The position numbers and the translations under genes were made by a program. Below the pieces are notes generated by a model. It ran no database searches, was not told the DNA's origin, and saw only the letters and a program-made list of their open reading frames with translations. A stretch of 64,000 nucleotides of DNA from Gilliamella apicola (GTDB lineage: Bacteria; Pseudomonadota; Gammaproteobacteria; Enterobacterales; Orbaceae): assembly GCF_000599985.1 (NCBI RefSeq), contig NZ_CP007445.1:186001-250000 (forward strand), given 5' to 3'. Shown one piece after another: positions 14,816 through 50,019 of this stretch. Within the stretch, counting starts at the first letter, position 1, and every line of letters begins with the position of its first letter.

Positions 14816-14822
14816 TAATTTG

Positions 14823-15859: not shown

Positions 15860-15865
15860 TATTTT

Positions 15866-31850: not shown

Positions 31851-33362
31851 ATGGTAAATACTTTACTTCGAAGTGGTGATATAAAAGATTTCAAAATGCT
31901 GGGGCACGATGGTAAAGCCGCCTATTTAGTTGCTACACAAATCCGTGAAATGTTTAGAGTAAAGTTAGGTAAGCAGTATGCTGATTATTTAGCTATTCCA
32001 CAACGTAATGATCAAGGTAATATTGTTGATTGGTATATTCCTTTTGATTCAACTCAATCTGATGGACAATATGATATTGTTCCTTGGACTTCTGCCAGTG
32101 AATCAGAGCAAGAAGAAGCATTAATTTTACTCAAAGAGTTCGAAAATAAAGTTATCAATTTAGGCAAGCAACTTGCGAGCAATCCAAATTTAGCAGGTGA
32201 TCAATTACTTTTTAGTCGCCTGATTTATGATCCCAAAAATAATATTGATAGTTCTGAACCTAATTTGATGGCAATACGTTTTCCAAGTAATCAATTTGTT
32301 TATATTGTTAATGGTAAACCTGTGATTACTTTTTGGGGATTTGTATATCCACAAACACCGCAAAATAATTCACCATTTAATTGTTTGCAATCTATAAAAC
32401 AACCAATTCCTTTAGCATCAACAGTAACTGAACCTGAGGTAATTAAAAAACCATGGTGGAAACGTTGGTGGGCGTGGTTGCTTGGTTTGTTGCTTTTATT
32501 ATTGCTATTATTTGCAATATTTTTGTTACGAGGCTGTGGGCAAAATTTGGGCGTTTCTATTAATCATGAAATAGCAAAGGAAAATAATATTAATCAACTT
32601 TTGCCAGCAGATGAAAAACAAGATGTAAAAGAAATAAAAAACAAAGATCAAGTGATTGATAGACAAATTAATGTTATCAATGGTACCAAAAATAATTTAA
32701 AGGATGTAGTTGATGCTAATGGCGTGCCTATAAACACTGAAGTTCAAGGAGATACTCTTAATACTGTTGATCCAAACGCAATACCTAATAATGTTGAAAA
32801 TAATGGTGATATTAATCAAATTCCAGACGCTTTAAATAGTAATGATGACAAAGTAGGTGATCCTAATTTAGTTGAATCCGATAAAAAAGATAATTTGGAT
32901 GGCACAAAAGATGAAGACAATAAAGGTCAAATACCTGAAGAATCAAATAAAGATAATAATTCTGATACTAATGTGAATCCAGATAAATTGGATAATTTAA
33001 CTTTATCTCCAGATCAAATAAAGCAAGGCTCCACTAAATTTTTGGATGGGCAATGGTCTGTTAGTGGAGGAATTCAAGACAAGGCTACTGGTAAACCATT
33101 ACAATTGAGTTATGAACTTAAAGATGGAAATGGCCAAGTTACTATTACTCGTAGTGATGGCGTTAAATGCGTTGGTCAAGTTGATAGTGGTATTCAAAAT
33201 GCTAATTTAAGTATTGGTGGTAATAACCAAGCTATCTGTAGTGACAATACCAAATATCAACTACCTAAGATTCAGTGTAAATCAGGCAACAATAATCAAG
33301 CTGATTGTCAGGGAATTTATGATAATGGAACTTCGTTCCCAATTACGATGAAAAAACAATAA
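31851..33362 (+). CDS. srfA: SrfA-family bitopic membrane protein
   Basis: A 503-residue protein. The cytoplasmic N-domain (about 1-190; DYLAIPQRNDQGN, VDWYIPF, FVYIVNGKPVITFWGF) is followed by a tryptophan-rich boundary and one membrane helix (about 208-227). An Asn/Asp-rich linker leads to a C-terminal periplasmic domain with four Cys (KFLDGQWSVSGGIQDKATG; KCVGQ, AICSD, IQCKS, ADCQG). The layout and the srfB-srfC neighbours fit the SrfA family, named for SsrB-regulated factors in Salmonella; the role is not settled. It begins the cluster with AAGGA ahead of the ATG. The N-domain resembles that of the two vWA proteins downstream. Confidence 0.78.
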   Translation: MVNTLLRSGDIKDFKMLGHDGKAAYLVATQIREMFRVKLGKQYADYLAIPQRNDQGNIVDWYIPFDSTQSDGQYDIVPWTSASESEQEEALILLKEFENKVINLGKQLASNPNLAGDQLLFSRLIYDPKNNIDSSEPNLMAIRFPSNQFVYIVNGKPVITFWGFVYPQTPQNNSPFNCLQSIKQPIPLASTVTEPEVIKKPWWKRWWAWLLGLLLLLLLLFAIFLLRGCGQNLGVSINHEIAKENNINQLLPADEKQDVKEIKNKDQVIDRQINVINGTKNNLKDVVDANGVPINTEVQGDTLNTVDPNAIPNNVENNGDINQIPDALNSNDDKVGDPNLVESDKKDNLDGTKDEDNKGQIPEESNKDNNSDTNVNPDKLDNLTLSPDQIKQGSTKFLDGQWSVSGGIQDKATGKPLQLSYELKDGNGQVTITRSDGVKCVGQVDSGIQNANLSIGGNNQAICSDNTKYQLPKIQCKSGNNNQADCQGIYDNGTSFPITMKKQ

Positions 33363-33370
33363 GGTTGTAT

Positions 33371-36300
33371 ATGCTTCCAGAAACACGCAACTATGGTCAA
33401 GAAGTTACACTTATAATGAATAGTGGAATTCAATTTCTTGATTTTGCCCTAAAAATAGATTGGAAAGATAATCAATGGCGCAGTAAAATTAATGGTAGTT
33501 TTATTGATCCTTCTGAAAGTGGGGCGCTAGTTAGATTAATTGAAGATAGTAATAATGGCAAATTTTTTGTACCAGATAATCTCTCTTTTGCTGTAACTCC
33601 TACACAAGAGATTAGTGTTGATCAATCATTAAAATTGTATGATGGTATTTGGTTGCCTGTTCCTGTTTTAAGATCAATACCACCTGAACGATTTGATAAA
33701 GGACCTCATAACTGGAGTCGTGTAAGGATTGTTAGCATTCCAGAAGGAGAAGATCCTGATGGCTATACACACCGCATAACTTTTGCATTTGATACTAAAA
33801 TCTTTGCAAACATGCAAGACGTTGTTTACTTAGCACCTACTGAAAATGATGTAAAAACAGGTTCAGTATTTAGTCTAGCACATCGCTCAGATCAGGTTTC
33901 TTGGTATCTAGAACTAAAATGGATAACAAGTTGGTTAATTGACTTGTTCCAAGAATTAGCTCCTCAGCCTGAACGACTAAAAATACACAAAGATGATATT
34001 GAATTAGAAATAAGTAATAAAGCTTATTATGGACATTATCTGAACATTCTTAATTTGCTCGCAGATTCAATACAGCTACCAACAATCAAAATAGTATCAA
34101 ACGCTAAAAATGATGTTGTCAAATCAATTCCTGTCGATATGATTCTTGATGTTGGAAACAGTCGAACTTGTGGGATTTTAATAGAAGATCATATTCAAGA
34201 TAAAGATACTTTAAATCATCGGTATGAGCTTGAAATTCGTGATCTTACCCAACCAGAACATATTTATAATGAACCTTTTGAAAGCCGAGTTGAATTTGCG
34301 CAAACTTTCTTTGGTAAGGAACATTATTCTTTACAAAGTGGAAGGCGAGACACTTTTCGCTGGCCAAGTATTGTACGAGTAGGTAAAGAAGCCAGCCGAC
34401 TTGCAAGCCGACGTGAAGGTAATGAAGGCGCAACAGGCCTTTCAAGCCCAAAACGTTATTTGTGGGATAAAGATAAGTACGAACAAGGTTGGCGCTTTAA
34501 CTCCCATTATGTAAAAAGTGATCATGAACCGTTTGCAACAGCGGAACCTTTTTCAAGTTTAATTAATGAATATGGCGAAGCGCTACATATTTTAAGTAAT
34601 GATATTGAAGAAGAGTATGATCGTAAAATGCCGGTTTTTCATCCAAAATACTCGCGTAGTTCTTTAATGACATTCATGCTATGTGAAGTTTTAATGCATG
34701 CTTTAATGCAAATAAATAGTGTTGCTCAACGAAATAAACTTGAACATGCTAAAACTCCTCGTAATTTGCGTTCTATCATTTTAACTATTCCACCAGCAAT
34801 GCCTAAACCTGAACAGGCAATTTTTAAAAGTTGTGTTTATCAAGCTATAGGGCTTGTTTGGAAAAGTCTTGGTTGGGATAATTCAGATAATAATATTGAT
34901 TTTAATAATCCTGAGCAATTAAGAAGTATTTGGCCAAATATTCCAGAAGTTTATATTCAATGGGATGAAGCAACCTGTGGTCAAATTGTTTATCTGTTTA
35001 ACGAAACACAAAATAATTATAATGGACGCAGTGAAGAATTTATTGCATCAGTAGTACGTCCTGATAAAGTTAATAAGCAAAAACTAACGATTGCAACTGT
35101 TGATATAGGTGGTGGTACAACTGATCTAGTTATTAATGATTACGAACTTGATTATGGTAGCAGCAAGCAAACAAATGGTAGCAATACTTATATTGTTCCT
35201 ATTCAACGTTTTCGAGATGGATTCAAAGTTGCCGGAGATGATATTTTACTCGATATAATTCAAGATGTTGTATTGACCGCCTTAACCAATGGTTTAAAAC
35301 AAGCTGGCTTAACTGATCCAAATCCAATTTTATCAACAATAATTGGTTCACAGCAACTTTCTATTCAAGATGCGGTATTACGCCAACAACTCAACTTGCA
35401 GCTATTTACACCAATTGGATTACAAGTGTTAAAGCAATATGAGCTTTATGATCCACTTCATGCAGATCAACATGTGTATAACGCTACTTTCAGTGAGTTA
35501 CTACAGCATACTTCTATGACTGATCATGTTTTGAATTTTATTAATGAACCGATTAGACGAGCTTTAAATAATCCAACATTTTCAGTGCTTGATGTAAGTA
35601 TAGAGATTAATTTGAAACGTATTCATCATTTATTTATTCGTGGTGATTATTATAATATCTGTAAGACATTTGATGCATTATCTGAAATTATCAGTTGTTA
35701 TCAATGTGATGTATTGTTGCTAACGGGGCGCCCATCACGTTTACCTGGCGTTCAAAGTTATTTCCGTTCTCGCTTATCAATACCTTCGGGAAGAATTTTA
35801 CCATTACATGGCTATTATACGGGAGGGTGGTATCCGTTTCATAAACAAGAACGAATCGATGATCCAAAAACTACAGCTGCTGTTGGGGCAATGCTCTGTT
35901 TTTTAAGTAAGAATTTAAGACTACCAAATTTTTATTTTAGATCATCAAATATCGATTTATATTCAACGGTTAAATATATTGGTCTGCTCGATAATCTAAA
36001 TATGATAAAAGATGAAAATATTTATTATCGAGATATTGATTTAGATGATCCTGATTATGATTTTCCTGATATCTCTTTTGAGATCCGAGGTACAACCAGA
36101 CTCGGCTTTAAACAATTAGAAATTGATCGTTGGCCTGCATCACCAATTTATATTTTAACGATTGAAAATAGCGATGTTGCTAGAAGGCTCAGTGCTGAAG
36201 GTGTTGTTTTAGAAGTGACATTAGGAATAAAAAACCGACAAAAAATGGTTGAAAATTTCTATATTAAAGATGTTAAAGCTTCTGATGGACGTGCTTGTAA

Positions 36301-36397
36301 CAAAACCAAGGATATAAAGCTAAATTTAAATACAATGGTAAATTCAGGTTTAATTAGTACACAATATTGGCTTGATAGTGGAATGATAAAGCGATGA
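33371..36397 (+). CDS. srfB: SrfB, Hsp70/actin-fold ATPase-like protein
   Basis: About 1,008 residues. The ATG at 33371 is chosen, with AAGG six nt before it; TTG at 33365 is an alternative in frame. A phosphate-1 loop ILDVGNSRTCGIL (about 258), a phosphate-2 loop TVDIGGGTTDLVI (about 577) and an adenosine-type motif LLLTGRPSRLPG (about 783) show an Hsp70/actin nucleotide-binding fold with large insertions. It is predicted cytoplasmic, with no membrane segment. Its N-terminus (VTLIMNSGIQFLDFAL) is a family signature. It overlaps srfC by 4 nt, so the ATPase and GTPase are probably made in fixed ratio. Partner proteins and substrate are unknown. Confidence 0.85.
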   Translation: MLPETRNYGQEVTLIMNSGIQFLDFALKIDWKDNQWRSKINGSFIDPSESGALVRLIEDSNNGKFFVPDNLSFAVTPTQEISVDQSLKLYDGIWLPVPVLRSIPPERFDKGPHNWSRVRIVSIPEGEDPDGYTHRITFAFDTKIFANMQDVVYLAPTENDVKTGSVFSLAHRSDQVSWYLELKWITSWLIDLFQELAPQPERLKIHKDDIELEISNKAYYGHYLNILNLLADSIQLPTIKIVSNAKNDVVKSIPVDMILDVGNSRTCGILIEDHIQDKDTLNHRYELEIRDLTQPEHIYNEPFESRVEFAQTFFGKEHYSLQSGRRDTFRWPSIVRVGKEASRLASRREGNEGATGLSSPKRYLWDKDKYEQGWRFNSHYVKSDHEPFATAEPFSSLINEYGEALHILSNDIEEEYDRKMPVFHPKYSRSSLMTFMLCEVLMHALMQINSVAQRNKLEHAKTPRNLRSIILTIPPAMPKPEQAIFKSCVYQAIGLVWKSLGWDNSDNNIDFNNPEQLRSIWPNIPEVYIQWDEATCGQIVYLFNETQNNYNGRSEEFIASVVRPDKVNKQKLTIATVDIGGGTTDLVINDYELDYGSSKQTNGSNTYIVPIQRFRDGFKVAGDDILLDIIQDVVLTALTNGLKQAGLTDPNPILSTIIGSQQLSIQDAVLRQQLNLQLFTPIGLQVLKQYELYDPLHADQHVYNATFSELLQHTSMTDHVLNFINEPIRRALNNPTFSVLDVSIEINLKRIHHLFIRGDYYNICKTFDALSEIISCYQCDVLLLTGRPSRLPGVQSYFRSRLSIPSGRILPLHGYYTGGWYPFHKQERIDDPKTTAAVGAMLCFLSKNLRLPNFYFRSSNIDLYSTVKYIGLLDNLNMIKDENIYYRDIDLDDPDYDFPDISFEIRGTTRLGFKQLEIDRWPASPIYILTIENSDVARRLSAEGVVLEVTLGIKNRQKMVENFYIKDVKASDGRACNKTKDIKLNLNTMVNSGLISTQYWLDSGMIKR

Positions 36398-39069
36398 AAA
36401 ATTTAAACGAACAACTACCTAAATCCTGGGAACAGGTTTATCAAGCATCAGCAAAGGCCATTGAATGGGTGGATGAAACTCGCAATTCATCTAAACGTCT
36501 GAATAATGAAGCTGATAGTTTAATTCTCGATCTTCGACGTCTCCGTAATAGTGCAAAAAAGTTAGGTGATGTATCAGGTAAATCTGTTGCAGTTGGTTTT
36601 TTTGGTTTATCGCAGGCAGGAAAATCTTATCTAATTTCAGCATTAGCAGCAGGTCAAAATGGCAAACTTGAAACTGTTGTTGATAATGAAATTTTAGATT
36701 TTATCGATCATGTTAATCCAGTCGGTAGTGGTAAAGAGGCAACGGGTCTTGTGACTCGTTTTAGCCGAATAGCTAAAGGAGGTATTGCCAACTATCCTTT
36801 AGAACTAAAACTCTTTCAAGAAATTGAAATTGTTAAAATTTTAATTAATGCTTATTTTAAAGATTTTGATCAACAAAGAATTAGTAATAAAATCGAATTT
36901 TCCTCATTAAATCAGCTTATTCAAAATATTGAAAGTAAAAAACAAGATGAGTATACAGGTGGTATTACTGAAGATGATATTGTTGATCTATATGATTATC
37001 TAGCTGAAAATTTTGGTAATTCGCTTGAAGGATTAAAAGGTGGTTATTGGGAAAAAGTAATGTATTTGCTACCGTATCTTAAAACTTCTGAACGTAGTGC
37101 ACTTTTTTCTATTTTATGGGGCGGTATTAGTGAAATTACGGCTGTCTATATACAATTAGCGACAACATTAGCTAGCTTAAATTATGTTAGTACAGTATAC
37201 GCACCAATTTCTGTATTAGTTAAAGATAATAATGGTACTAAGTCACAAATTGATAGTATTATGAATGTCGATATCCTTGAACGATTAAATACTGACCGTG
37301 ACTCATCAGTAACTATTACTCCTCAAAATGGTGTACCAACCTCGATTTCTCTAGCTCAACTTGCTTTTTTAACCGCTGAATTAACTTTTCCATTAGTAAA
37401 TCAAACGCGTGTGCCTACGTTTGAAAAAGTTGATTTGCTTGATTTCCCAGGATATCGTGGACGATTAAATTTAACTTCTATTTCAGATGTTAAAGAAGGT
37501 AATCCTATTGCCCAACTTTTATTACGGGGTAAAGTTGCTTATCTTTTCGAAAAATACACTGATAATCAAGAAATGAATGTTCTTGTTGTTTGTACACCAT
37601 CAGATAAGCAATCTGATGTGAACGATGTTGGTCCCGTTCTTGAACGTTGGATAGATAAGACCCAAGGAGAGTCAGCAGAAAAAAGAGCGACTAAAAAAGC
37701 TGGACTATTATGGGCTATTACCATGTTCGATAAACGGATTAGCAACTCATTAACTTTATCAGAAGATAATCTTAAAAATAGTTGGGGTAAAGGTGGATTA
37801 CTACAACAAACCATTTTAGAACGTTTTGGTAACTATGATTGGTTAACAAATTGGTTTAATGAACATAAATTCAACAACGTTTTTTTAGTACGAAAGCCAG
37901 GTTTTGATGTACCATTTTTAAATACTGATGCAGAGACAAAACTTGAATTATCTTACAACGATACTTATCAAGAAAAAATGCAAATTTTAAAAAATACATT
38001 TGTTGAAGATCCTGATATCAAAGAGTATGTGAACGCTCCAGATCAAACATGGGATGCCATGTTAAAATTAAATGATGGTGGTATTGGAAGAATTAGTCAA
38101 TATTTAGAACAAGTTGCTATTACTGAAATCAAACAACAACGCATTGTTGAACAACTCAATGAAAAAATTGATTATATTATTAATATGCGTTTTGATACTT
38201 GGTATCAGGCAGATAATGATGAAGAACTTGGCAAGAAAAAACAGATTATTGCTAATGTTGTTAAAGAACTACAGGTAAAAGCCTTATTATTGGGTGAACT
38301 ACTTAAAGTATTAGAACTACCTGAGCAAACCATTCGTGCGATTTATCATACTAGTGAAGCAGATACTGATACATCTAAAAACGAAGCTCATAATGATATG
38401 GTCAATGATATATCAACCGATTTTGCATTAAATACCGATTTTGAATTATTTTCTGATGATAATTTCTCATCTAATATAAAACCAGTAACCATTTTACCAA
38501 CTGAATGTAAATTGGCTAAAACAATATTTACTACATGGCTAGAATATTTAAGAAATATTGTTTTAGATAAACATATTTTGCAATTTTTTGGTTTGGAGCA
38601 AAAATCACTATCTTTTATTGTCGAAGAGCTTATCACTGCAGCAAATCGTCTAAAAATTGAAGCAAGTTTAACTGAACGAATATTGCAAAATGAAAATACA
38701 GGTAGTAAACGCGATGATCTAGAGTCTAGACAAGTGAGCACTATACATACTTTATTGGCAGACTTCATTGCATGGCTCGGTTTTGTTCAAGGGCAATCTA
38801 TTGAAATACCAATGAGCAGAGTTAATCAAGGTAAACCAATATTTTCTTCACCATTGAGCCAATTTTCAAGTCAATTATCACATCCACTACCAGTACTTGA
38901 TGATAAGACTAAAAATTATTCTCAATTTGCTATATTTGATTGGTTTATTGCATTTGCTATGCTTGCTCAAGAAAATGTTGGGCACCATGCTGGACGTGAA
39001 ATAAGTCAAGAACAAAACTCTCGACTTGGTGAGATTTTAATGTTCTTTAAACAATCACAAATAAAATAG
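36394..39069 (+). CDS. srfC: SrfC, dynamin-like GTPase-type protein
   Basis: An 891-residue cytoplasmic protein. The P-loop GFFGLSQAGKSYLISAL lies at residues 69-85. A switch II/Walker B DLLDFPGYRGR is at about 347-357, and ITMFDKRI near 441 stands where a G4 motif would be. Long helical regions follow, with no clear membrane span. This is the plan of bacterial dynamin-like or SrfC-family GTPases. It overlaps srfB by ATGA. Two hairpins follow the stop codon before the next gene. GTP use and membrane remodelling are inference from fold; only the motifs are seen. Confidence 0.82.
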   Translation: MKNLNEQLPKSWEQVYQASAKAIEWVDETRNSSKRLNNEADSLILDLRRLRNSAKKLGDVSGKSVAVGFFGLSQAGKSYLISALAAGQNGKLETVVDNEILDFIDHVNPVGSGKEATGLVTRFSRIAKGGIANYPLELKLFQEIEIVKILINAYFKDFDQQRISNKIEFSSLNQLIQNIESKKQDEYTGGITEDDIVDLYDYLAENFGNSLEGLKGGYWEKVMYLLPYLKTSERSALFSILWGGISEITAVYIQLATTLASLNYVSTVYAPISVLVKDNNGTKSQIDSIMNVDILERLNTDRDSSVTITPQNGVPTSISLAQLAFLTAELTFPLVNQTRVPTFEKVDLLDFPGYRGRLNLTSISDVKEGNPIAQLLLRGKVAYLFEKYTDNQEMNVLVVCTPSDKQSDVNDVGPVLERWIDKTQGESAEKRATKKAGLLWAITMFDKRISNSLTLSEDNLKNSWGKGGLLQQTILERFGNYDWLTNWFNEHKFNNVFLVRKPGFDVPFLNTDAETKLELSYNDTYQEKMQILKNTFVEDPDIKEYVNAPDQTWDAMLKLNDGGIGRISQYLEQVAITEIKQQRIVEQLNEKIDYIINMRFDTWYQADNDEELGKKKQIIANVVKELQVKALLLGELLKVLELPEQTIRAIYHTSEADTDTSKNEAHNDMVNDISTDFALNTDFELFSDDNFSSNIKPVTILPTECKLAKTIFTTWLEYLRNIVLDKHILQFFGLEQKSLSFIVEELITAANRLKIEASLTERILQNENTGSKRDDLESRQVSTIHTLLADFIAWLGFVQGQSIEIPMSRVNQGKPIFSSPLSQFSSQLSHPLPVLDDKTKNYSQFAIFDWFIAFAMLAQENVGHHAGREISQEQNSRLGEILMFFKQSQIK

Positions 39070-39118
39070 TTATTTTAAATAAAATAAGTGATAATCATTT
39101 TATCGTCATTAAATAAAT

Positions 39119-39139
39119 AAGGTAGCATGAAGCTACCTT
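39119..39139 (+). other. Hairpin 1 after srfC
   Basis: AAGGTAGC / GCTACCTT, 8-bp perfect stem with a 5-nt loop and no T run behind it, so more likely a processing or stability element than a terminator. Confidence 0.55.
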
Positions 39140-39149
39140 GGTTTATGAA

Positions 39150-39176
39150 AAGTTTATCAATCTATATTGATAAACT
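39150..39176 (+). other. Hairpin 2 before the next gene
   Basis: AGTTTATCAA (39151-39160) / TTGATAAACT (39167-39176), perfect 10-bp stem, 6-nt loop, then CTTAGTTG. It lies only 11 nt behind hairpin 1 and 24 nt before the next start codon. Confidence 0.55.
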
Positions 39177-39200
39177 CTTAGTTGTGAAATAGAGGATATC

Positions 39201-40247
39201 ATGGCACTAAGAATTGAATTAGAAGGGTATAAACCAGGTATTGCTAGATTTTTGGCACAAAAATGGAATGGTAGTGCTGATATTGATATATTGATTCAAC
39301 GTAACCAAGATAATTATTATTTATCCGGTCTTAATCTATGGGGACCAGAAAAAAATTGGCATTCATTGAATAATATGTCAGTAGATAATGAGCAATTAAT
39401 TGGATATGTTGATGAATGGCTAGTTGATTCTTTATTATCTCAAGAAAACAGTGTCAGATTTCTTATCCAAATTCGTGATGAACAAAATGAAAGTTATACG
39501 GATAGCGGAGTAGTTAATATTGGTGAGACAGTATTTCCATCCTCTGCTTTGAATACTCAAACAGAGCAACCACAGGTTATTGAACAAAATACGATTGAGA
39601 TAAATGAAGTCAATTCGAATTTAGTTCAATCAGATACTATCGAATCTTTAGATCCTCAATCTGAATTGCCAACTGTTGAAGAAGAAAATCAAGCAATGAC
39701 AGAGCCTGAGGTTGAAATAGAAGTCACACCAGAACCAGTAACTACACAAGAAGTCATCTCTACTCCAGAACCGACTAAGTCAAAAAGTAAATTGAGGATA
39801 TTTATCCTAATTTTTATAATAATACTGATTTTAAGTGGGCTTGGTGCATTAGCATGGTATTTCTTATTTTCTCAAGATAAAAGTTCTTCAGATACTTCAA
39901 TACAAGGCAATAGTCAGTGTAATGTCGCTAATGTAACAAGTGATGATTTAACCTTTATTCAACAATGTTTACAGTCAAAACCGAATACTGATGTGTTAAT
40001 TGAGATAATCAATCAAGCAAAACAAGCGAATAAATGTAATATTGCTCAGCGGTTATATGCGAATCAATCCTTATTAAATGCTAAAATTGCCTTACTTTAT
40101 GCCAAAGAATATGATGAAAAATTTTATCATAACAACTCGTGCTTTAAAGTGGATAAGCAAACGGCGATTTATTGGTATGAAACTACATTAAATAATGATC
40201 CTAATAACGCCTTGGCTAAAGAGCGTCTAGCTGAATTGCAAAAATAA
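39201..40247 (+). CDS. Bitopic protein with acidic Pro-rich linker and Sel1/TPR-like tail
   Basis: I do not recognise the family. The 348 residues comprise a globular N-domain of about 110 residues rich in beta-type sequence (ALRIELEGYKPGIARFL, then FLIQIRDEQNESYTDSG), a Glu/Pro/Thr/Val-rich linker (115-195), one membrane helix (about 199-223) and a periplasmic tail with four Cys. The tail ends in a Sel1/TPR-like repeat (TAIYWYETTLNNDPNNALAK). Positive Lys/Arg before the helix predicts an N-in topology, the same as SrfA and the vWA pair. AGAGGA precedes the ATG. Its place between srfC and the PpkA-like gene suggests a structural part of the same envelope complex; that is inference. Confidence 0.75.
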   Translation: MALRIELEGYKPGIARFLAQKWNGSADIDILIQRNQDNYYLSGLNLWGPEKNWHSLNNMSVDNEQLIGYVDEWLVDSLLSQENSVRFLIQIRDEQNESYTDSGVVNIGETVFPSSALNTQTEQPQVIEQNTIEINEVNSNLVQSDTIESLDPQSELPTVEEENQAMTEPEVEIEVTPEPVTTQEVISTPEPTKSKSKLRIFILIFIIILILSGLGALAWYFLFSQDKSSSDTSIQGNSQCNVANVTSDDLTFIQQCLQSKPNTDVLIEIINQAKQANKCNIAQRLYANQSLLNAKIALLYAKEYDEKFYHNNSCFKVDKQTAIYWYETTLNNDPNNALAKERLAELQK

Positions 40248-40259
40248 TAAGGTGCAAGT

Positions 40260-42224
40260 ATGAAAAGAAAAGTAATTTCAACATTAATTATCGGATTTAG
40301 TTTTACTTGTTTACCTTTGGTTAGTTCGGCTATAGAACCATTAAAGCAAGAGGGTAAAACAACACTTTACCAGCGAGTTCTTAGTACTCCAACTTGTGAA
40401 TTAAAAAAAGATATTAAGGATTCTACTGGTCAATCAGTGCCTGCCTTTTCTCGTTATTATGTTTATGAGCGTAAAACGGATAACAATCAACAATGGCTTA
40501 GTGTTGGTCCAGATTCTTATGGAAAAACGATAGGTTGGATTAATAATGCATGTGCTATTGCTTGGAATATGCAAATGACATTAGTCTTTACTAACCCTGT
40601 TGATCGTGATTCTCTCTTATTTTTTAAAGATAAAGCCTCACTTACGACTCTTGTTGATGCAAATCAACCTGAAACTTTGTTAAAACCTATTAGGGAAGCA
40701 CTTAAAAACAATAAATCAGTCCCTGAAATTGTTGCTCAAGAGCCAAAAGAGTATGTTGATTTTAAAACAAATTTTTATTTATTACCTATTTTACAAGGTG
40801 AAGAGGTAATGAATGGTAAAGGATTTTATGAGCGCATTCTAGAAGTGGCTTCAGTGAGTAAGCAAGATGATTTGGTAAAAAATAATAACGCTCAATCTAA
40901 TGTACAAGGTTCTGATGATGACATCAATCAAGTAGCACCATTCAAAGCTGCGATAGTATTTGTTATAGATTCGACTATTTCAATGGATCCTTATATTTCA
41001 AGAACTAAAGAAGCGGTTGAACAAGTTTATCGACATATAGAAAAAGAACATCTACAAGAGCAAGTAAAATTTGGTCTTGTCTCATTCCGTTCAAGTTTAC
41101 AAACTTCGGACAAGTTAGAATTTTTAACAAAGATTTTTGTTGATCCTAACAAAGTACAAAATAGAGAAGATTTTATACAGTTAAGTTCATCGCTCAAACA
41201 AGCGACTGTTTCTACTGCTTATTTTGCTGAAGATTCTTATGCTGGTATTGCCAAAGCATTAAATGATATCAATTGGAATAGCTTTGGCGCACGTTATATG
41301 ATTTTGATCACTGATGCAAGCGCCATTCCTGGCGATGATAAACTTTCTAGTACTGGAATGGATGCAGCACAGTTAAGACTTGAAGCTCAACATAAAGGTG
41401 TTGCTATTTATGCACTACATTTAAAAACACCAAGTGGTGAAAAAGATCATCAAGTCGCTGCAACGCAGTATTCAGATCTAACTTATAACGATTATATTCA
41501 TAAATCACTTTATTATCCCGTTAATGCCGGTGATGTGAATGAATTTGGTCGGAAAGTGGACTTATTAGCTAAAACTCTGTCTGAACAAGTTAAACTAGCA
41601 TATAAAGGCGAAGCATCAGTTGGTAATGCAATTAACGCTAAAGATGACAGTTCTAATATGCTAAAAGATGCATTGTTATTAAGTAAGGCGATGCAACTTG
41701 CTTATTTAGGTGATACTAATGGTACAAAAGCTCCTTCGGTTTTTAAAGGATGGATTGCTGATAAGGATTTTGTTAAACCAACGATACCGACAGCCGAACC
41801 TCGTATTTTGTTAACTAAATCTCAATTAAGTGATTTAAGTGATATTGTCAGTAAAATAGCTAATGCGGCTAATGATGGGTTAATTTCTGCTGATGATATG
41901 TTTTCGCAGTTACGTTCTGTTGCTGCGGCTATGGGACAAGATCCAAATAAATTAAAATCAGATTCAGTGACTAAAATCGCCGATTTAGGTTTATTAGGTG
42001 AATATTTGGATAATATTCCATATAAAAGTGATGTCACAGGTCTTGATCAAGATACTTGGAAAAGTATGAGTGGTTTAGAGCAAGAAAAATTTATTCGAAA
42101 TTTAAATAGTAAAGTTCGTTATTATCAAAAATGTAATGCTGATGTTGATCGTTGGATTTCATTAGCCGAAGGAAGTGATCCTAGAGATAATGTTTATCCT
42201 ATTCCATTAGAAATGTTACCGTAA
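40260..42224 (+). CDS. Secreted vWA protein like the periplasmic half of T6SS kinase PpkA
   Basis: 654 residues with a cleavable signal peptide (about 1-24, ending VSSA). An SH3-like segment follows (about 60-125; FSRYYVYE, WLSVGPDSYG, MTLVFTNPVDRDSLLFF). The vWA domain from about 228 to 430 has a MIDAS D237-S-T239-I-S241 and LITDASAIPGDDK. The C-terminal helical domain reads ILLTKSQLSDL, LADLGLLGEY-like sequence, and ends VYPIPLEMLP. To my recollection these blocks, including the ending, match the periplasmic region of PpkA, the Thr kinase of the type VI secretion signalling pathway. Here there is no kinase domain and no transmembrane anchor other than the signal peptide. It is followed by tagT/S/R-like genes. 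The periplasmic location is predicted. Confidence 0.8.
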   Translation: MKRKVISTLIIGFSFTCLPLVSSAIEPLKQEGKTTLYQRVLSTPTCELKKDIKDSTGQSVPAFSRYYVYERKTDNNQQWLSVGPDSYGKTIGWINNACAIAWNMQMTLVFTNPVDRDSLLFFKDKASLTTLVDANQPETLLKPIREALKNNKSVPEIVAQEPKEYVDFKTNFYLLPILQGEEVMNGKGFYERILEVASVSKQDDLVKNNNAQSNVQGSDDDINQVAPFKAAIVFVIDSTISMDPYISRTKEAVEQVYRHIEKEHLQEQVKFGLVSFRSSLQTSDKLEFLTKIFVDPNKVQNREDFIQLSSSLKQATVSTAYFAEDSYAGIAKALNDINWNSFGARYMILITDASAIPGDDKLSSTGMDAAQLRLEAQHKGVAIYALHLKTPSGEKDHQVAATQYSDLTYNDYIHKSLYYPVNAGDVNEFGRKVDLLAKTLSEQVKLAYKGEASVGNAINAKDDSSNMLKDALLLSKAMQLAYLGDTNGTKAPSVFKGWIADKDFVKPTIPTAEPRILLTKSQLSDLSDIVSKIANAANDGLISADDMFSQLRSVAAAMGQDPNKLKSDSVTKIADLGLLGEYLDNIPYKSDVTGLDQDTWKSMSGLEQEKFIRNLNSKVRYYQKCNADVDRWISLAEGSDPRDNVYPIPLEMLP

Positions 42225-42229
42225 AGCAG

Positions 42230-42946
42230 ATGTTAGTAATAAAACAACTTGAAATATCTCGATCAACAGGTAAATCTTTTTTTAGAGTCTGTTTACCTGA
42301 ATTGATCTTAAAAGAAGGTGATATTGTTGTTATTCAAGGAGATAGCGGATCTGGTAAAAGTACCCTCCTTGAGATGATTGGCATGATTCTCAAACCAGAT
42401 AATATAGATGGCTATAAACTTTTTTTAGACAATAACGATCTTGATATTGCTAAATTGATTAATAACAATGATATAAATCAATTAGCCAATATACGTGCTC
42501 AATATTTAGGATTTATGTTGCAAACTGGTGGTTTACTGCCTTTTTTGAAGATATATGATAATATTTTATTGCCAATTAAATTATTACAAAAAAATGTTGA
42601 TAATTCACGGTTAGAATATTTGATAGATAAACTAGGCATTTCTCATTTGCTAAATAAATATCCTAAACAATTATCGATTGGTGAGCGCCAACGAGCCTCT
42701 TTTATTCGTTCAATTATCCATAAACCAGCATTACTACTTGCAGATGAACCAACCTCTGCTCTCGATCCTTATAATGCAAATTTACTTTTTGATTTAATTA
42801 TTGAACAGGCAAAACAAGATAATATTGCAACTATAATAGTTACTCATGATTGGCAACGTATTTCTACTAAAGGTTTATTCACTTTATCTGCTAAGTTAGT
42901 ATCTTCACATTCATCAGAATTTCTTCCATTACATGATAGGCAGTAA
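42230..42946 (+). CDS. ABC transporter ATP-binding protein (TagT/LolD-like)
   Basis: A 238-residue ATPase with Walker A GDSGSGKSTLLE, Q-loop MLQTGG, signature LSIGERQRASF, Walker B LLLADEPTSALD and H-loop VTHDW, so it should be active. It belongs to the MacB/LolD/TagT group that pairs with FtsX-type permeases. The gene begins 5 nt after the vWA gene, and its permease follows after 3 nt. In the P. aeruginosa T6SS signalling operon TagT occupies the equivalent place; assignment by context is inference, because LolD-like ATPases all look alike. Confidence 0.88.
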   Translation: MLVIKQLEISRSTGKSFFRVCLPELILKEGDIVVIQGDSGSGKSTLLEMIGMILKPDNIDGYKLFLDNNDLDIAKLINNNDINQLANIRAQYLGFMLQTGGLLPFLKIYDNILLPIKLLQKNVDNSRLEYLIDKLGISHLLNKYPKQLSIGERQRASFIRSIIHKPALLLADEPTSALDPYNANLLFDLIIEQAKQDNIATIIVTHDWQRISTKGLFTLSAKLVSSHSSEFLPLHDRQ

Positions 42947-42949
42947 AAA

Positions 42950-44173: not shown

Positions 44174-45752
44174 TACTAAAAAAAATATTTTTTGTGTATT
44201 AATATCTATAGGCATGAGTTTATCTCCTTCTATCAGCTATGCTGAGCCATGGGATACTAATTTTTATAATCCTAAACCATCGGATGATGATGTTATTTTT
44301 CCTATGCCATGTGACGGCAGCATGGTGATGAAGAAAGTTTATACACCTACGAATAAGCCACTAGATGATATCAAAGTTATTTTGGGTAGCAATCAAAAAG
44401 AGCTTGGTTTTGCTGAATATGCAACTCCAAATTATATTTCAGGTAGTTTTTCAGATAACGGTAAAGAACGATATTATCTGATAGGTAAGTATGAAGTAAC
44501 AGCATTGCAATATCAAGCTGTGATGAATGATACTTGCCCTTCGGCAAAAATTTCACTTATATTTCCAATGACAAATATTAGTTGGTTTGATGCTATTGCA
44601 TTTACTGATAAATATAATAGATGGTTAATTGAAAATCAGACAAAAAATAAATTAAACACAATTCCACAAGGGTATTTTCGCTTACCTAATAATACTGAAT
44701 GGGAATATGCAGCACGAGGAGGTACAAAAGTAACCGAATCTGAATTTCGTGAAAATCACTTTCCAATGGCTGCCAATTTAGAAAATTATGCATGGTTTTC
44801 TGGAGCAAAATCTGCTAATGGTAAACTACAACTTATAGGTCGATTACAGCCCAATCCGCTAGATATCTATGATATTTTGGGTAATGCAAATGAAATGATG
44901 TTTGACTCTTTTCGTATGAACAAGTTAGATCGTTATCATGGTCAAGAGGGCGGAATGATTGTCCGTGGTGGCAGTTATTTAACCCCTGAATCGTCAATAA
45001 CTGCAGCATTTCGTACTGAAAAACCTTATTATGATGATAAAGGTGCTTACAAGAGCCTGGATGTCGGTTTTCGTTTGGTTTACACAACCTCAGTCATGAA
45101 TTCGAGCGATGCAGTTAAAGTTTTAGATAAACAATGGAATGAACTTGGAAATGAAACAACAAGTTCAGCAAATGGTAACGTTGTTAATGAACTTGAGAAA
45201 ATTACTAAACGAGTCGAGGATGAGAATACAAAAAAAGAATTAAACAAATTAAATACGTTGTTACGTAGTGCAAACCAAGCTAGAGATGAACAACGAAACC
45301 GTTCTATACAGTCAGCATTACAATTAGGTGCGTTTTTGTGTGCTAATGTTTCAGATTTAAACAGCAAATTTGAATACAATAATCATTTGTATAATACCAT
45401 GACTAATGAAATTTGCGATCCAGACGAAACAGAAACATTGCCTGATGATAATATGTGTTCAAAAGTTAAGCTTAATAATTTAAAACAGGTGCTCAATGAA
45501 TCAAAAAATGCAAGAGACTTTATTTTAAAATATTATGCCGATACTATCGTTACTACAGCATCAAATTACGAAAAAAATGTCATTAATGAGCAAGCTCAAC
45601 CCACAAAATTTATTTTGGAAAACAGTGGTAAAGCCAATATGAATGATTATCTAAAACTTTATTTAAACCACATTAATCAATATATTGTGTCAGGAAAGGT
45701 TGATAGAACAACTTGGTTACAGTCTTGTGATGAGATAAAAGGAAAGAAATAA
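44130..45752 (+). CDS. Periplasmic pseudo-FGE (SUMF1-domain) protein, TagR-like
   Basis: 540 residues from GTG 44130, which has a strong AGGAGG at 44119-44124 and lies inside the permease gene. The signal peptide ends near SISYA (about residue 38). The FGE/SUMF1 fold spans about 60-320: IGKYEVTALQYQAVM, NISWFDAIAFTDKYNRW, RLPNNTEWEYAARGG, DILGNANEMMFDSF and VRGGSYL to VGFRLVY. The catalytic Cys that follow GGSYL in true formylglycine-generating enzymes are replaced (LTPESSITAAFR), so it should not be an active FGE; TagR is likewise a non-enzymatic binder. A C-terminal helical extension of about 210 residues with several Cys is not part of the FGE fold. Confidence 0.85.
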   Translation: MPLKSSQLKVYEKFNTKKNIFCVLISIGMSLSPSISYAEPWDTNFYNPKPSDDDVIFPMPCDGSMVMKKVYTPTNKPLDDIKVILGSNQKELGFAEYATPNYISGSFSDNGKERYYLIGKYEVTALQYQAVMNDTCPSAKISLIFPMTNISWFDAIAFTDKYNRWLIENQTKNKLNTIPQGYFRLPNNTEWEYAARGGTKVTESEFRENHFPMAANLENYAWFSGAKSANGKLQLIGRLQPNPLDIYDILGNANEMMFDSFRMNKLDRYHGQEGGMIVRGGSYLTPESSITAAFRTEKPYYDDKGAYKSLDVGFRLVYTTSVMNSSDAVKVLDKQWNELGNETTSSANGNVVNELEKITKRVEDENTKKELNKLNTLLRSANQARDEQRNRSIQSALQLGAFLCANVSDLNSKFEYNNHLYNTMTNEICDPDETETLPDDNMCSKVKLNNLKQVLNESKNARDFILKYYADTIVTTASNYEKNVINEQAQPTKFILENSGKANMNDYLKLYLNHINQYIVSGKVDRTTWLQSCDEIKGKK

Positions 45753-46444
45753 TGAACAAAATAATAGGAACATTAGCTTTATGCGTATCGCTTGTATTAA
45801 CTGGTTGCCAATCCTCATCTGGTGGTGCAAGTACTAGAAATGTTGACCCTGCTCTAACTAAAGGTTCTACAGCTCAATTTTTTAGTAAATCTGCTTGGCA
45901 AGCTTGTGCTGTAGGTGTTGGAATTATGGGGGTTGGTTGTTTGTTGTTAGGTGAAAAAGCTGGCACATGCCTTGCTTCAGCAGCTGTTGGTTGTGGTGTA
46001 ATGATGGGAGGAAATTATTACTTGGATACTAAACGCGCAGAATATGCAAATGCTGAGATGCGTATTGATGCTTATATTCAAGATCTTCAACAAAATACAC
46101 TCGAAGTTCAATCAATCACACAAAATGCAAAGAATGTTTTGGATAAAAATTTAGCTACACTTCATGCATTAAATGAACAAATAAAAAATGAGAATGTGAA
46201 TAAAAAGCAAGTTAAGAAAAATTTAACTCAAATTGATGCAAATATTGCTTATCTGAATGATAAATTAAATCGAATTAAAAAAGTTGAAAACGATTGGGTT
46301 AATCTTTCTGTTCAAGAACAACAATCAGGTGTAAATGTAACAAGATTAGATAAAGAAATAGGTGAATTACATAAACAAATTTCAGCACTTGAAAAACAAA
46401 TTAATTTAGTTACTCAACAACGTTCAGCTGTGAAGGTCAGTTAA
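45752..46444 (+). CDS. Lipoprotein with Gly-rich segment and coiled coil (TagQ-like position)
   Basis: A 230-residue lipoprotein: signal peptide with lipobox LTGCQ (Cys19). A glycine- and cysteine-rich hydrophobic stretch follows at about 50-90 (VGVGIMGVGCLLLG, ASAAVGCGVMMGG). A helical Gln/Asn/Lys-rich domain (about 95-230) ends in a coiled coil. The start codon shares one base with the preceding stop (TAATG). With residues QS after the Cys, it should go to the outer membrane. By position it could do the job of TagQ, the outer-membrane anchor of TagR, but I cannot claim sequence homology. Confidence 0.72.
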   Translation: MNKIIGTLALCVSLVLTGCQSSSGGASTRNVDPALTKGSTAQFFSKSAWQACAVGVGIMGVGCLLLGEKAGTCLASAAVGCGVMMGGNYYLDTKRAEYANAEMRIDAYIQDLQQNTLEVQSITQNAKNVLDKNLATLHALNEQIKNENVNKKQVKKNLTQIDANIAYLNDKLNRIKKVENDWVNLSVQEQQSGVNVTRLDKEIGELHKQISALEKQINLVTQQRSAVKVS

Positions 46445-46446
46445 TT

Positions 46447-46929
46447 ATGAAAAAAATATCTATTATTTCACTTTTGTCTTTAGTTTCACTCGTAGGTTGT
46501 TCAACAACTCCAGAACAATGTGATCCAAGAAATACTAATTTAGGTATTATGGATAAAATAAGCTGTAACTATTCTGGTAATTACCAAACACGTATTGATC
46601 AGAAGAAGCGTATTCTTGAAAATGAGCAAAAAGCTAACCAGCAGTTTAAAGAAATTTATGCCAACATAGAAAAACAAAAAAATGATACAACTTTAAGTAT
46701 TAAGCAAAAACAAGCTCAGCAAAACAAGCTTAAACAAGACTTAATGAAATTAACTAATGAAATTAAAGAAAAGTCTAAAGATCGTGATGATTTACAAGAA
46801 CAACTTAATGACATTCAACAACAATTTAAGCAAGTTAATCAATCAAATAAGTCAGAAATTGAAAAGCAAGTTGAACTCGATAAATTAAATATGAAACTTC
46901 AAAAATTACAAAAAGCATTGAATATATAA
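46447..46929 (+). CDS. Small coiled-coil lipoprotein
   Basis: A 160-residue lipoprotein with lipobox LVGCS (Cys about 18), two more Cys in the next 30 residues (EQCDPRN, KISCNYSG), then an almost unbroken coiled coil rich in Lys, Gln and Glu to the end. It starts 2 nt after the preceding lipoprotein gene. The coiled coil resembles the tail of its neighbour, so the two may pair. Function unknown. Confidence 0.72.
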   Translation: MKKISIISLLSLVSLVGCSTTPEQCDPRNTNLGIMDKISCNYSGNYQTRIDQKKRILENEQKANQQFKEIYANIEKQKNDTTLSIKQKQAQQNKLKQDLMKLTNEIKEKSKDRDDLQEQLNDIQQQFKQVNQSNKSEIEKQVELDKLNMKLQKLQKALNI

Positions 46930-46989
46930 ACATACTGATGCTTAATTAAATATTGATAAGAAACGTTAAATGTAAGGAATTAATAACAA

Positions 46990-48360
46990 ATGCAACGAAT
47001 AATAAGGATTAAGGTTGATCATAATGATTTTCAAAAAATGTCTTTATTAGATCAATATAATTCTCTGTTAATGTTATTAAAACCACATTTAACTGAACGA
47101 ACCTTTTCAATTTTAGCTACACCCAGATTAATTGATGACAATCAGTATTTGGGTTGGTATACAGACCTTCAAGGCCAACCTATTTTTCTAAATAGTGTTA
47201 CTGATGAAGTATTAAAAAAGCAAATATCAGAAAAATTACAAACACGTATTAGTGACATTGAATTAACCATTAAATCTTTACAATTGAGTGATGAACAACA
47301 AGCGTTGGTTTCATCTTGGTTGCCAAGAATTAAAAGTTTAGGTAATCAAATCTATATTATTAATGGTGAACCAGTGATTATTAATACGTTTGAAGACCCT
47401 ATCTTACCACCTCCTGTTGTTGCACCTTCAGCTATACCGGTGAAAACTTTTTGGCGATGGTGGCATTTTTTGATCTTAGTCTTATTATTTGCCGGATTAG
47501 GATATTTGTTATACTATTTTTATCCTTTTAATAAAGAAAAAAAGGTAGAGGATGTACCTAAATTAACTATTATACCTCCAGTATTGGTTAAGAAACCAGT
47601 ACCAGTACCTGAACCAGTACCAGTACCTGAACCAGTACCTGAACCAGTACCCGTTGCTAGAAACTGTATTCCTAAAGAAGATGTGATAAAAAATGATAAC
47701 GCATCGAAAATGGTGATGATATTTGATAATTCGTCTTCAATGACAATAACGTTGATGGAGTCAAAATCAGCTATTGCTAAGTATTTAGCAACTGATTTCA
47801 GTATGCTGACACAAAAAGAAGCAGATGCTTATGAAGCTAGAATGACAAGGTTACCGAATCGTTTATCAAGTAGTAAAAAAGTTGCATTGTCGACTATTGA
47901 TAAAATACAACAAGATATTAATATAGCTTTGGTTACATTAACCAGTTGCCCTGTTGCACAAACGACTTCGTTTTATGATTATGCCAGCCGTGGAAAACTA
48001 AAAAATAAGATTAATAAGCTTAATCCATTAGAATATAATAGTGCTACACCATTATACAGTGGTGTACAGCAAGCAAGTAAAATGCTTAATGGTGTAAATC
48101 GCGATGATTATATTTTAATTATTAGTGATGGTGAAGATAGTTGTTCTAAAAGTAATATTTGTTCATTAGCTAGTAAAATTGCAGCTAAACAGCCTCGTTT
48201 AAAAATTAACATTGTTGATATTGCAGGACAACATAAAATTGACTGTGTAGCGAAAAGTACAGGCGGTAAAGTTTATATTGCACAAAATCCGACAGAAATT
48301 GTTAATCAAATGAATAAAGCTGTTTCTGACTTGAATATTACTAAACCTATCTGTGAATGA
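46990..48360 (+). CDS. Bitopic vWA-domain protein, copy 1
   Basis: 456 residues. The cytoplasmic N-domain (about 1-140; LKPHLTERTFSILATP, YLGWYTDL, QIYIINGEPVI) is followed by a WRWW boundary, a membrane helix (about 158-178), a Pro-Val-Glu linker of repeated PVPEP units (203-222) and a periplasmic vWA domain with complete MIDAS (D246-N-S248-S-S250, T in SATPLYSG, D in ISDGEDS). The vWA part has six Cys shared with copy 2, probably disulfides. The N-domain shares the WY and INGEPVI landmarks with SrfA. It stands 60 nt after the lipoprotein gene. Confidence 0.82.
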   Translation: MQRIIRIKVDHNDFQKMSLLDQYNSLLMLLKPHLTERTFSILATPRLIDDNQYLGWYTDLQGQPIFLNSVTDEVLKKQISEKLQTRISDIELTIKSLQLSDEQQALVSSWLPRIKSLGNQIYIINGEPVIINTFEDPILPPPVVAPSAIPVKTFWRWWHFLILVLLFAGLGYLLYYFYPFNKEKKVEDVPKLTIIPPVLVKKPVPVPEPVPVPEPVPEPVPVARNCIPKEDVIKNDNASKMVMIFDNSSSMTITLMESKSAIAKYLATDFSMLTQKEADAYEARMTRLPNRLSSSKKVALSTIDKIQQDINIALVTLTSCPVAQTTSFYDYASRGKLKNKINKLNPLEYNSATPLYSGVQQASKMLNGVNRDDYILIISDGEDSCSKSNICSLASKIAAKQPRLKINIVDIAGQHKIDCVAKSTGGKVYIAQNPTEIVNQMNKAVSDLNITKPICE

Positions 48361-48477
48361 TATTAAGCTAAAAATTATCTCATGTAGAATTTAATTATAA
48401 AATAATGATATAAAACGGCTTCACACAGATTTGTATGATAGTCTGAAAGTAATTAGAAATAAGGACGTCGGTTAACA

Positions 48478-49953
48478 ATGCAACGTATAACTCGAGTTAA
48501 AGTCGATGACAATAATCCCTCAAAACTCATTTTATTAGATCAATATAATTTAATACTATCGTTACTAAAACCTTATTTGACCGAACGGACTTTTTCAATT
48601 TTTGCGATACCTAAACTAATAGATAATAATCAATATTTAGCTTGGTACACAAACCTTGAAGGTCAACCTATCCCAGTTAATAGTATTGCAGATGATTCAG
48701 TTAAACAAAAGATAACAGAAACATTACAAGTACGAATAAATGATCTTGAGACATCTATCAAGACAATTATATTGGATGAAGAACAGCAAAAGTTAATTAC
48801 ATCATGGTTACCTCGAATCAAAAGTTTAGCTAATGAGATTTTTGTTATCAATGATGAACCCGTGATAATTTATAGTCTTGATGAACCTGTTTTACCTAAG
48901 CCTGTCATTACAGAACCAGTCATTTCTCGAAAATCTTTCTGGAGATGGTGGAATATTTTATTGTTAGGTTTATTATTATTATTAGCTACATTAGGTGCCT
49001 TGCTGTTCTTTTTTTATCCATTTAACAAGGAGGAAAGAGTAGAAACGATACCTCAAATTACTATTATTCCGCCTGTATTGGTAAAGAAACCAGTACCTGA
49101 GCCAATTGTTGAACCTTCTAAAGAAGAACCTAAATCCGTTGAAAAATTAGAACCAGCAAAGTCACCAATTGAAGATAAAAAACAAGATATCAAGATAAAA
49201 GTTGCGCCTAAACCGGTGCCAAAAGTCAAAAATCCTCCAAATTGTATTACTAAAGAAGAAATAAAAAATAATCCTAATCCATCAAAAATGATTATTGTGT
49301 TTGATAATTCTTTATCCATGACTGCAACGTTAGCTGAACCGCCATCCGAAGTAGAGCAATTCTTTCAATATTTAAGTTACGGTTATCCAAGTTATATGTC
49401 AGAACAAGATAAAATTAAATATTATAACAAGATGACTCGTTTACCAAGCCGTTTGTCGGCAAGTAAAAAGGTAGCTTTATCAAGTATTGATAAAATACAA
49501 CCTAATATTGGCATTTCGCTTGTAACTTTAAATCATTGTCCTGCAGCAAATGCTACACAATTTTATGATTATTCCAGCCGTAGTATTTTAAAAAATAACA
49601 TAAATAGACTTAATCCATCCGCTGTTGGAGGTGGAGGAACGCCACTTTATAGTGGTTTAGAGAAAGCAAGTAGCATGCTTGATGGTGTTAAACGTGAAGA
49701 TTATATTTTGATCATTAGTGATGGCGAAGATAACTGCTCTAAGAACAATATTTGTACTTTAGCAAATTATATTGCTACAAAAAAACCAAAGTTAAAAATT
49801 AATATTGTTGATATTGCAGGTGAACATAAAATTGATTGTGTTGCTAATATGACTGGTGGAAAAGTTTATATAGCTCAGAGTCCAAAAGATATGATTAAAC
49901 AGATGAATAAAGCTGTTTCTGATCTAAAGGTAGATAGGCCTGTGTGTCAATAA
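48478..49953 (+). CDS. Bitopic vWA-domain protein, copy 2
   Basis: A 491-residue paralogue of the preceding gene, similar from end to end: MQRITRVKVDDNN, LKPYLTERTFSIFAIP, IKSLANEIFVINDEPVI, a WRWW boundary, a membrane helix (about 158-180) and a vWA with MIDAS D276-N-S278-L-S280. The linker (200-255) is longer, Lys/Glu/Pro-rich, and lacks the neat PVPEP repeat. The six Cys of the vWA are conserved (NCITK, HCPAA, NCSKN, ICTLA, DCVAN and the C-terminal VCQ). It is the last gene of the cluster, followed by a strong terminator. Confidence 0.82.
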   Translation: MQRITRVKVDDNNPSKLILLDQYNLILSLLKPYLTERTFSIFAIPKLIDNNQYLAWYTNLEGQPIPVNSIADDSVKQKITETLQVRINDLETSIKTIILDEEQQKLITSWLPRIKSLANEIFVINDEPVIIYSLDEPVLPKPVITEPVISRKSFWRWWNILLLGLLLLLATLGALLFFFYPFNKEERVETIPQITIIPPVLVKKPVPEPIVEPSKEEPKSVEKLEPAKSPIEDKKQDIKIKVAPKPVPKVKNPPNCITKEEIKNNPNPSKMIIVFDNSLSMTATLAEPPSEVEQFFQYLSYGYPSYMSEQDKIKYYNKMTRLPSRLSASKKVALSSIDKIQPNIGISLVTLNHCPAANATQFYDYSSRSILKNNINRLNPSAVGGGGTPLYSGLEKASSMLDGVKREDYILIISDGEDNCSKNNICTLANYIATKKPKLKINIVDIAGEHKIDCVANMTGGKVYIAQSPKDMIKQMNKAVSDLKVDRPVCQ

Positions 49954-50019
49954 ATTCTTTTATTTAACTGATTAAATAGATTGAATAAAAGGATAAACAA
50001 TAATATTAATTGTTATAAA

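Follow-up and report, generated by a model that had tools for sequence, protein, structure and literature searches.

In the bee-gut bacterium Gilliamella apicola, the srfABC genes share one cluster with a kinase-free counterpart of TagQRST-PpkA, the arm through which Pseudomonas aeruginosa senses outer-membrane damage (PMC11881912). The cluster lies at positions 31851-49953 of the window, that is, the whole 64,000-nucleotide stretch analysed here (contig NZ_CP007445.1, positions 186,001 to 250,000), in a genome of 3.14 Mb assembled as a single contig. The SrfABC and Tag halves are tied together by the terminal vWA proteins, since these carry the cytoplasmic domain of SrfA. With a probability of about 0.5, the cluster would be a self-contained sensor of outer-membrane damage whose output is SrfB and SrfC instead of a kinase and a type VI secretion system (T6SS). 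The association of srfABC with tag genes and ppkA is already known from PMC3608642 and PMC6950479, and the details given here refine and partly correct it. An earlier note on this DNA had proposed the linkage and the Tag identities, which stand, together with a PpkA assignment that does not; the joint neighbourhood had been published in 2013.

Organization of the cluster

The cluster comprises 12 open reading frames (ORFs), genes A to L (1 to 12), all on the + strand; the earlier note counted 11, although its own list names 12.

31851..33362, + strand: srfA (gene A); cytoplasmic SrfA-N domain, transmembrane (TM) segment 208-226 and Cys-containing periplasmic C-terminal part, as predicted; NF040486, 332.7 bits (cut-off 150)
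33365..36397, + strand: srfB (gene B); TTG start; PF07520, 1345.6 bits
36394..39069, + strand: srfC (gene C); large GTPase, predicted dynamin-like fold; PF10139, 974.2 bits
39201..40247, + strand: gene 4 (D); bitopic protein with TM 200-218; some homologues have a Sel1/TPR-like region at the C-terminus
40260..42224, + strand: gene 5 (E); PpkA-like vWA protein of the periplasm, secreted and kinase-free; PF00092 (vWA), 28.7 bits
42230..42946, + strand: gene 6 (F); TagT-like ABC ATPase; PF00005, 78.7 bits
42950..44173, + strand: gene 7 (G); TagS-like FtsX-type permease; PF02687, 37.3 bits; its profile gives 312-347 bits in loci L118-L120
44130..45752, + strand: gene 8 (H); TagR-like secreted protein resembling formylglycine-generating enzyme (pseudo-FGE); PF03781, 121.2 bits; its profile gives 310-315 bits in L118-L120
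45752..46444, + strand: gene 9 (I); TagQ-like lipoprotein with lipobox; NF041250, 19.6 bits (below the cut-off of 300)
46447..46929, + strand: gene 10 (J); second lipoprotein, coiled-coil; lipobox pattern in 75/77 homologues
46990..48360, + strand: gene 11 (K); SrfA-N domain, TM 160-178, periplasmic vWA domain; PF13519, 28.1 bits
48478..49953, + strand: gene 12 (L); paralogous to gene 11; PF13519, 29.6 bits; NF040486 on the N-terminal part, E=5.5e-6 (below cut-off)
50017-50044, no strand assigned: terminator-like hairpin; 12 pairs, T tail, symmetric sequence

Proteins 1, 4, 11 and 12 each have a single strong TM segment by hydropathy, within residues 160-226, and no second one, which agrees with the bitopic topology claimed earlier. 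Signal sequences were called by eye and from hydropathy, without a predictor. Profile scans of the 12 ORFs gave no match to kinase, phosphatase, FHA or tss profiles, nor to TssB/C, TssM or other T6SS core genes, as the earlier note had also observed.

A kinase-free PpkA half within a Tag arm

The 654-aa gene 5 protein begins with a signal-like sequence and matches no kinase profile. It aligns with the C-terminal part of the PpkA-type proteins of L118-L120 (32-33% identity over 632-638 aa). In a survey of 397 Pseudomonadota genomes its profile matched 29, 13 of them at more than 800 bits and six at 588-604 bits; the latter are Pseudomonas-family genomes in which the match lies inside frames of 1017-1189 aa. 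The two of these long frames that were scanned both contain Pkinase (163 and 168 bits), with vWA sub-threshold. The remaining matches comprise two intermediate proteins (G350, 851 aa; G014, 757 aa) and eight weak vWA matches. Because it aligns with the C-terminal part of PpkA-type proteins, gene 5 corresponds, judged by sequence, to PpkA's periplasmic half, secreted on its own without the kinase. Homologues in the named loci, which are the best 80 of at least 581 confirmed relatives and hence skewed to near relatives, measure 551-711 aa in 78/79 cases, one frame reaching 978 aa. A PDB sequence search with gene 5 found no match. The earlier note had placed PpkA in the terminal bitopic vWA proteins, but their periplasmic part reaches only 10.8% against the gene 5 family in hhalign, and it is gene 5 that aligns with PpkA.

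Profiles, blastp and collinearity with L118-L120 identify genes 6-9 as counterparts of TagT, TagS, TagR and TagQ, as previously named: the order E-F-G-H-I equals ppkA-tagT-tagS-tagR-tagQ in all three loci. Gene 6 is 37-41% identical to the ABC ATPase beside PpkA there; the ATPase profile score alone is unspecific, unrelated ABC proteins reaching 262-275 bits. The gene 9 family profile gives 51-61 bits on the corresponding protein; PADLOC matches to gene 9 appear to be coiled-coil noise. Gene 8 has a GTG start and a 44-nt overlap with gene 7, its exact start being uncertain, and shares 95% identity with proteins labelled Gilliamella apicola. A PDB sequence search with it returned FGE-like and PorK/GldK rows. 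It differs from formylglycine-generating enzyme in that none of 77/77 homologues has a Cys within 14 residues after [RK]GG[SN], where we take the active-site cysteines to lie, which fits the designation pseudo-FGE. Proteins 9 and 10, described before as lipoproteins, have visible lipoboxes. Gene 10 has a homologue in L122 (56 bits), and none was found in the kinase-type loci L118-L120. An IcmF/TssM gene lies nearby in L118, and a PP2C phosphatase gene in L120.

Two further loci, L121 and L122, carry E-F-G-H-I with an E that lacks the kinase; neither SrfC nor, among the scanned ORFs, any tss gene accompanies them, and the Tag-like arm therefore seems to be a portable unit. In L121 (G350, 3492-15546) a 292-aa gene lacking any Pfam match and a 649-aa TIR-domain gene lie upstream of the arm on the same strand; downstream comes a trypsin-like protease that also has a peptidoglycan-binding match. 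L122 (G014, 8520-17684) consists of E-F-G-H-I-J, with J overlapped by the S41 peptidase gene that comes next.

The cytoplasmic domain shared by SrfA and the terminal vWA proteins

The N-terminal parts of SrfA and K match each other in hhalign at 98.9% (E 1.6e-17 for a single comparison, 109 columns), with reversed controls at 4.4% and 1.9% and eleven other domain pairs below 1%. NF040486 also reaches the N-termini of K (17.7 bits, E 0.0018) and L (26.1 bits, E 5.5e-6), in both cases short of its cut-off of 150. On these comparisons, the cytoplasmic parts of SrfA and K/L are homologous. In the AF2 model of gene 12, residues 1-140 form a confidently predicted N-domain (block means 85-98), alongside a TM helix and a vWA fold; the structural match lists for this model are filled by the vWA domain and hold no SrfA-N rows. 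Fifteen K-type proteins contain 2 Cys in 2400 aa before the TM segment versus 101 in 4515 aa after it, so that a periplasmic location fits the vWA part; SrfA has five after and one before.

In the first round of iteration, the profiles of A, K, L and D drifted, each picking up members of the others. Profiles for A and K were therefore built from hand-picked sets and D was rebuilt as well, and the locus counts use these; the gene orders for Orbaceae and the 80 named loci used the drifted D profile, and D is not counted alone there.

K-type genes are found after J, before A on the same strand (e.g. Proteus, Xenorhabdus), or divergently upstream (L189-L191). In L033 (18672-19862), the place directly upstream of srfA that some loci give to a vWA sensor is taken by a bitopic trypsin-like protease (Trypsin_2, 76.9 bits), which may correspond to the Hap-like gene of the set described in PMC3608642. 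A viral-contig scan with gene 11 gave no match.

SrfA, SrfB, SrfC and gene 4

The profile scores listed above confirm the three Srf identities. SrfB has residues invariant in 20 sequences (D262-G264-N265, D580-G582GGTTD587 and G788-R789-P790), which presumably form the phosphate-1, phosphate-2 and adenosine motifs of the actin/Hsp70 superfamily, and it is probably an ATPase with a fold of this type. The FtsA profile matches 2/20 members weakly (best E 0.17), and a PDB sequence search with SrfB found no match.

SrfC is 79-84% identical to its counterparts in named Gilliamella loci and has G71..SQAGKS78, D350FPG353 and T443..D446 invariant in 40 sequences. The earlier note had named SrfC a GTPase; its predicted fold is dynamin-like and not that of a small GTPase: in the AF2 model a GTPase domain is joined by helical regions from both ends, with dynamin-like structural neighbours (Foldseek/VIA). 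This predicted architecture is shared with BDLP, SynDLP, the C. jejuni dynamin-like protein pair and mitofusins, from which SrfC differs in that identity is about 10%. GTP hydrolysis and action on membranes are putative. The MMR_HSR1 GTPase profile matches 14/40 members (best E 0.007), and a PDB sequence search gave chance-level rows only. In Xenorhabdus, SrfA, SrfB and SrfC co-immunoprecipitate (PMC6950479).

A gene 4 homologue is present in 80/80 named loci. The earlier description of gene 4 as Sel1-like finds no Pfam match in the protein itself, although 2/13 homologues match PF08238. A role for gene 4 as a PpkA linker was considered and rejected as an artefact, the D profile giving 18-28 bits on PpkA over only the proline-rich linker and TM segment.

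Distribution and linkage

SrfC occurs in 26/397 genomes, among them 13/13 of those with a strong gene 5 match; the separation of the downstream genes from srfABC that would have spoken against one system did not occur. Among these 13 genomes, SrfA-N plus B-J is found in the host genome of the window and in L034, L035, L036, L038 and L040. Partial loci comprise A-H (L033, L037), A-G (L032), B-H (L041) and B-J (L042/L043), and one locus is split across two contigs (G114; L046, L123).

In a survey of 44 Orbaceae genomes SrfC matched 31, one of them a remnant. Twenty of these stretches were examined: 19 contain SrfA-N, B-J and one to three K-type genes, and one is the remnant (L147). SrfA-N with genes 2-10 is complete in 77/80 named loci, 73 of which have K in the same stretch; the other three are two short contigs (L208, L217) and one unresolved locus (L213). 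Azotobacter vinelandii CA (L182) likewise has SrfA-N and B-J in this order, its last gene extending to the end of the stretch examined. Component gene-distance correlations of 0.89-0.97, calculated without species-tree control, do no more than fit inheritance as a block. The unit is also plasmid-borne: among 72,556 plasmid records SrfB matches 142 and gene 5 matches 125, with 114 from Klebsiella in each case. A conjugative plasmid of Enterobacter sp. 638 carries K-A-B-C-D-E-F-G-H-I-J as one block, with no T6SS gene annotated in 26 kb, in a gene table that is incomplete.

Thirteen minimal srfABC loci (L044, L045, L047-L057), all from one Enterobacterales family, lack D-L. Their SrfC measures 710-820 aa versus 891 aa in the window, which suggests a distinct subfamily. 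One genome (G345) holds both kinds of locus (L040, L057).

The cluster and type VI secretion

TssC was found in 104/397 Pseudomonadota genomes. It occurs in 6/6 kinase-type genomes, at <=15 kb from the kinase, in 7/13 gene 5 genomes and in 12/13 other SrfC genomes. Orbaceae have it in 20/30 genomes with a full SrfC, in 11/13 without SrfC and in the remnant genome. The srfABC-tag module is not tied to T6SS, as 6/13 gene 5 genomes and 10/30 Orbaceae carriers are without TssC. The earlier wording 'without a secretion machine' is true of the cluster but not of the genome, which has TssC at 2158585 of the same contig, ~1.9 Mb away.

Comparison with known systems

The cluster resembles the P. aeruginosa-type TagQRST-PpkA arm of the H1-T6SS in the homology and order of E, F, G, H and I. 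It differs in having no kinase on the PpkA part and no PppA, Fha or tss, and it adds lipoprotein J, SrfABC, D and K/L. With the srfABC operon of Salmonella and Xenorhabdus it shares the SrfA, SrfB and SrfC profiles and the adjacency of these genes, unlike the minimal loci in its D-L genes and its longer SrfC. The closest precedent is the neighbourhood of host-associated Deltaproteobacteria, where srfABC occurs with tagQ, ppkA, a LigA-annotated gene and usually tagRST, T6SS machinery genes being present in only one carrier (PMC3608642). That set contains the same gene kinds, mostly without T6SS; PpkA is treated as a kinase, a Hap-like gene is added, and SrfA-N vWA proteins go unmentioned in the paper's passages on the neighbourhood. 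It is called host-associated there, whereas records of Pseudomonas, Azotobacter and Halomonas contain the present gene set as well. In Xenorhabdus stockiae, genes for post-translational T6SS control adjoin srfABC (PMC6950479). No description of the missing kinase, of the SrfA domain on the vWA proteins or of a dynamin-like fold of SrfC, nor any link between SrfC and dynamin, was found in the open-access literature searched.

Proposed mechanism and alternatives

Given a missing kinase and sensors that bear SrfA-N, the most economical interpretation is that the input of the TagQRST-PpkA arm acts here on SrfB and SrfC. Of the T6SS threonine-phosphorylation pathway the periplasmic arm would be kept, with SrfABC in place of the kinase-Fha-T6SS output. 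Lipoproteins I and J and pseudo-FGE H would sense outer-membrane damage or contact, the F/G ABC pair would gate the signal, and the gene 5 protein with the bitopic vWA proteins K/L would relay it across the inner membrane. SrfA-type cytoplasmic domains may contact the SrfB ATPase and the dynamin-like SrfC GTPase, or bring them together, at the site, and SrfC could stabilise, reseal or remodel the inner membrane. It is possible, if doubtful, that an envelope breach is in this way answered by local inner-membrane remodelling or repair and not by weapon firing, the cluster being a bacterial wound-response machine. Part of this tentative reading is that an outer-membrane damage sensor which T6SS retaliation also uses has been connected anew to SrfC and SrfB via a common SrfA-type adaptor domain.

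Several observations weigh against the damage-sensor scheme. Half of the SrfC genomes (13/26) have no gene 5 match, so that co-occurrence holds in one direction only; 12 of them have bare srfABC, which implies that SrfABC does something without the arm, and the thirteenth (G134, L039) has SrfA-N, B, C and D. Within the 13 gene 5 genomes, SrfA was not detected in three (L041, L042/L043), and K-type genes were found in seven, with none in the examined stretches of the other six. One Gilliamella genome (G423) has lost srfB and the greater part of srfA and srfC, whereas its D-J are still open; either dependence is not absolute or the decay is recent. SrfB also aligns weakly with DnaK (29% over 28 columns, including the DIGGGTTDL motif; reversed control 0.4%), the TM-scores of the SrfC model by query length are low (0.13-0.22), and no Pfam dynamin profile matches any of the 40 SrfC members.

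The remnant locus of G423 (L147, 8411-9235) has a 274-aa frame in which an SrfA-like N-terminal part is fused to an SrfC-like C-terminal part. Gene 4 is expanded there to 1000 aa by repeats, and no K-type gene lies in the stretch.

The same components could form a trans-envelope transporter, with F/G acting like LolCDE or MacB and SrfB/SrfC energising or gating it. The module does unite an ABC pair, lipoproteins and periplasmic proteins, and the best NCBIfam families are LolD for gene 6 (132 bits; cut-off 307.75) and lolCE for gene 7 (27 bits; cut-off 362.45), both below cut-off. However, the F/G pair is collinear with TagT/TagS, two participants in PpkA signalling (PMC11881912), no cargo gene was recognised, and the G permease is absent from the 13 minimal srfABC loci, all of which makes transport an unlikely function. 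A system for stress or phage defence, whose periplasmic sensors detect injection or breach and whose dynamin-like GTPase responds by sealing the membrane or delaying lysis, is no better placed. Bacillus DynA confers phage resistance (PMC8844932), the unit occurs on plasmids, and SrfC has a weak PADLOC match to LeoBC (E 6.2e-4, 17 bits); but carriage by 30/44 Orbaceae is unlike a patchy defence island, and PADLOC, run on ten proteins (all except genes 6 and 10), gave no other convincing match.

SrfABC has also been viewed as a tripartite cytotoxin or effector, and its export might be controlled by the Tag arm. The proteins are cytotoxic on HeLa cells (PMC6950479), and triggering of SrfC export by PpkA has been suggested (PMC3608642). 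This is improbable given that SrfA is bitopic, that SrfB and SrfC look like cytoplasmic NTPases, and that the cluster has no kinase and no export machine beside it, TssC moreover being absent from a third of the Orbaceae carriers (10/30). Regulation of the separate host T6SS in trans is very improbable: the arm is homologous to a T6SS regulator and TssC is commoner in gene 5 genomes than overall (7/13 against 104/397), but many carriers lack it, most Orbaceae without SrfC have it (11/13), and the cluster has no Fha or kinase.

Boundaries and intergenic features

The cluster is flanked by gss (glutathionylspermidine synthase) on one side and by convergent gyrB on the other; phosphatase, Fha and tss genes are likewise absent from the flanking cysteine/methionine enzyme, gss, gyrB and recF. 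The junctions from A to L measure 2, -4, 131, 12, 5, 3, -44, -1, 2, 60 and 117 nt. Eight of the 11 are thus <=12 nt or overlapping, the wider ones being C-D, J-K and K-L, in line with the compact one-strand layout and end terminator reported before. Because its sequence is symmetric, the hairpin at 50017-50044 may also terminate gyrB. The 131-nt gap between srfC and gene 4 (39069-39201) contains two perfect inverted repeats by inspection, of which a scan flagged the first only, on the - strand; they could set expression ratios.

Implications

SrfABC has long been labelled a 'virulence factor' without a mechanism, and the present findings supply a concrete, testable model. They suggest that the damage-sensing arm of T6SS is a portable input module serving other outputs. 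The hosts of the cluster include soil bacteria and harmless bee symbionts. If the wound-response reading were true, such a machine would be found across Gammaproteobacteria and beyond, and would also be carried on plasmids.

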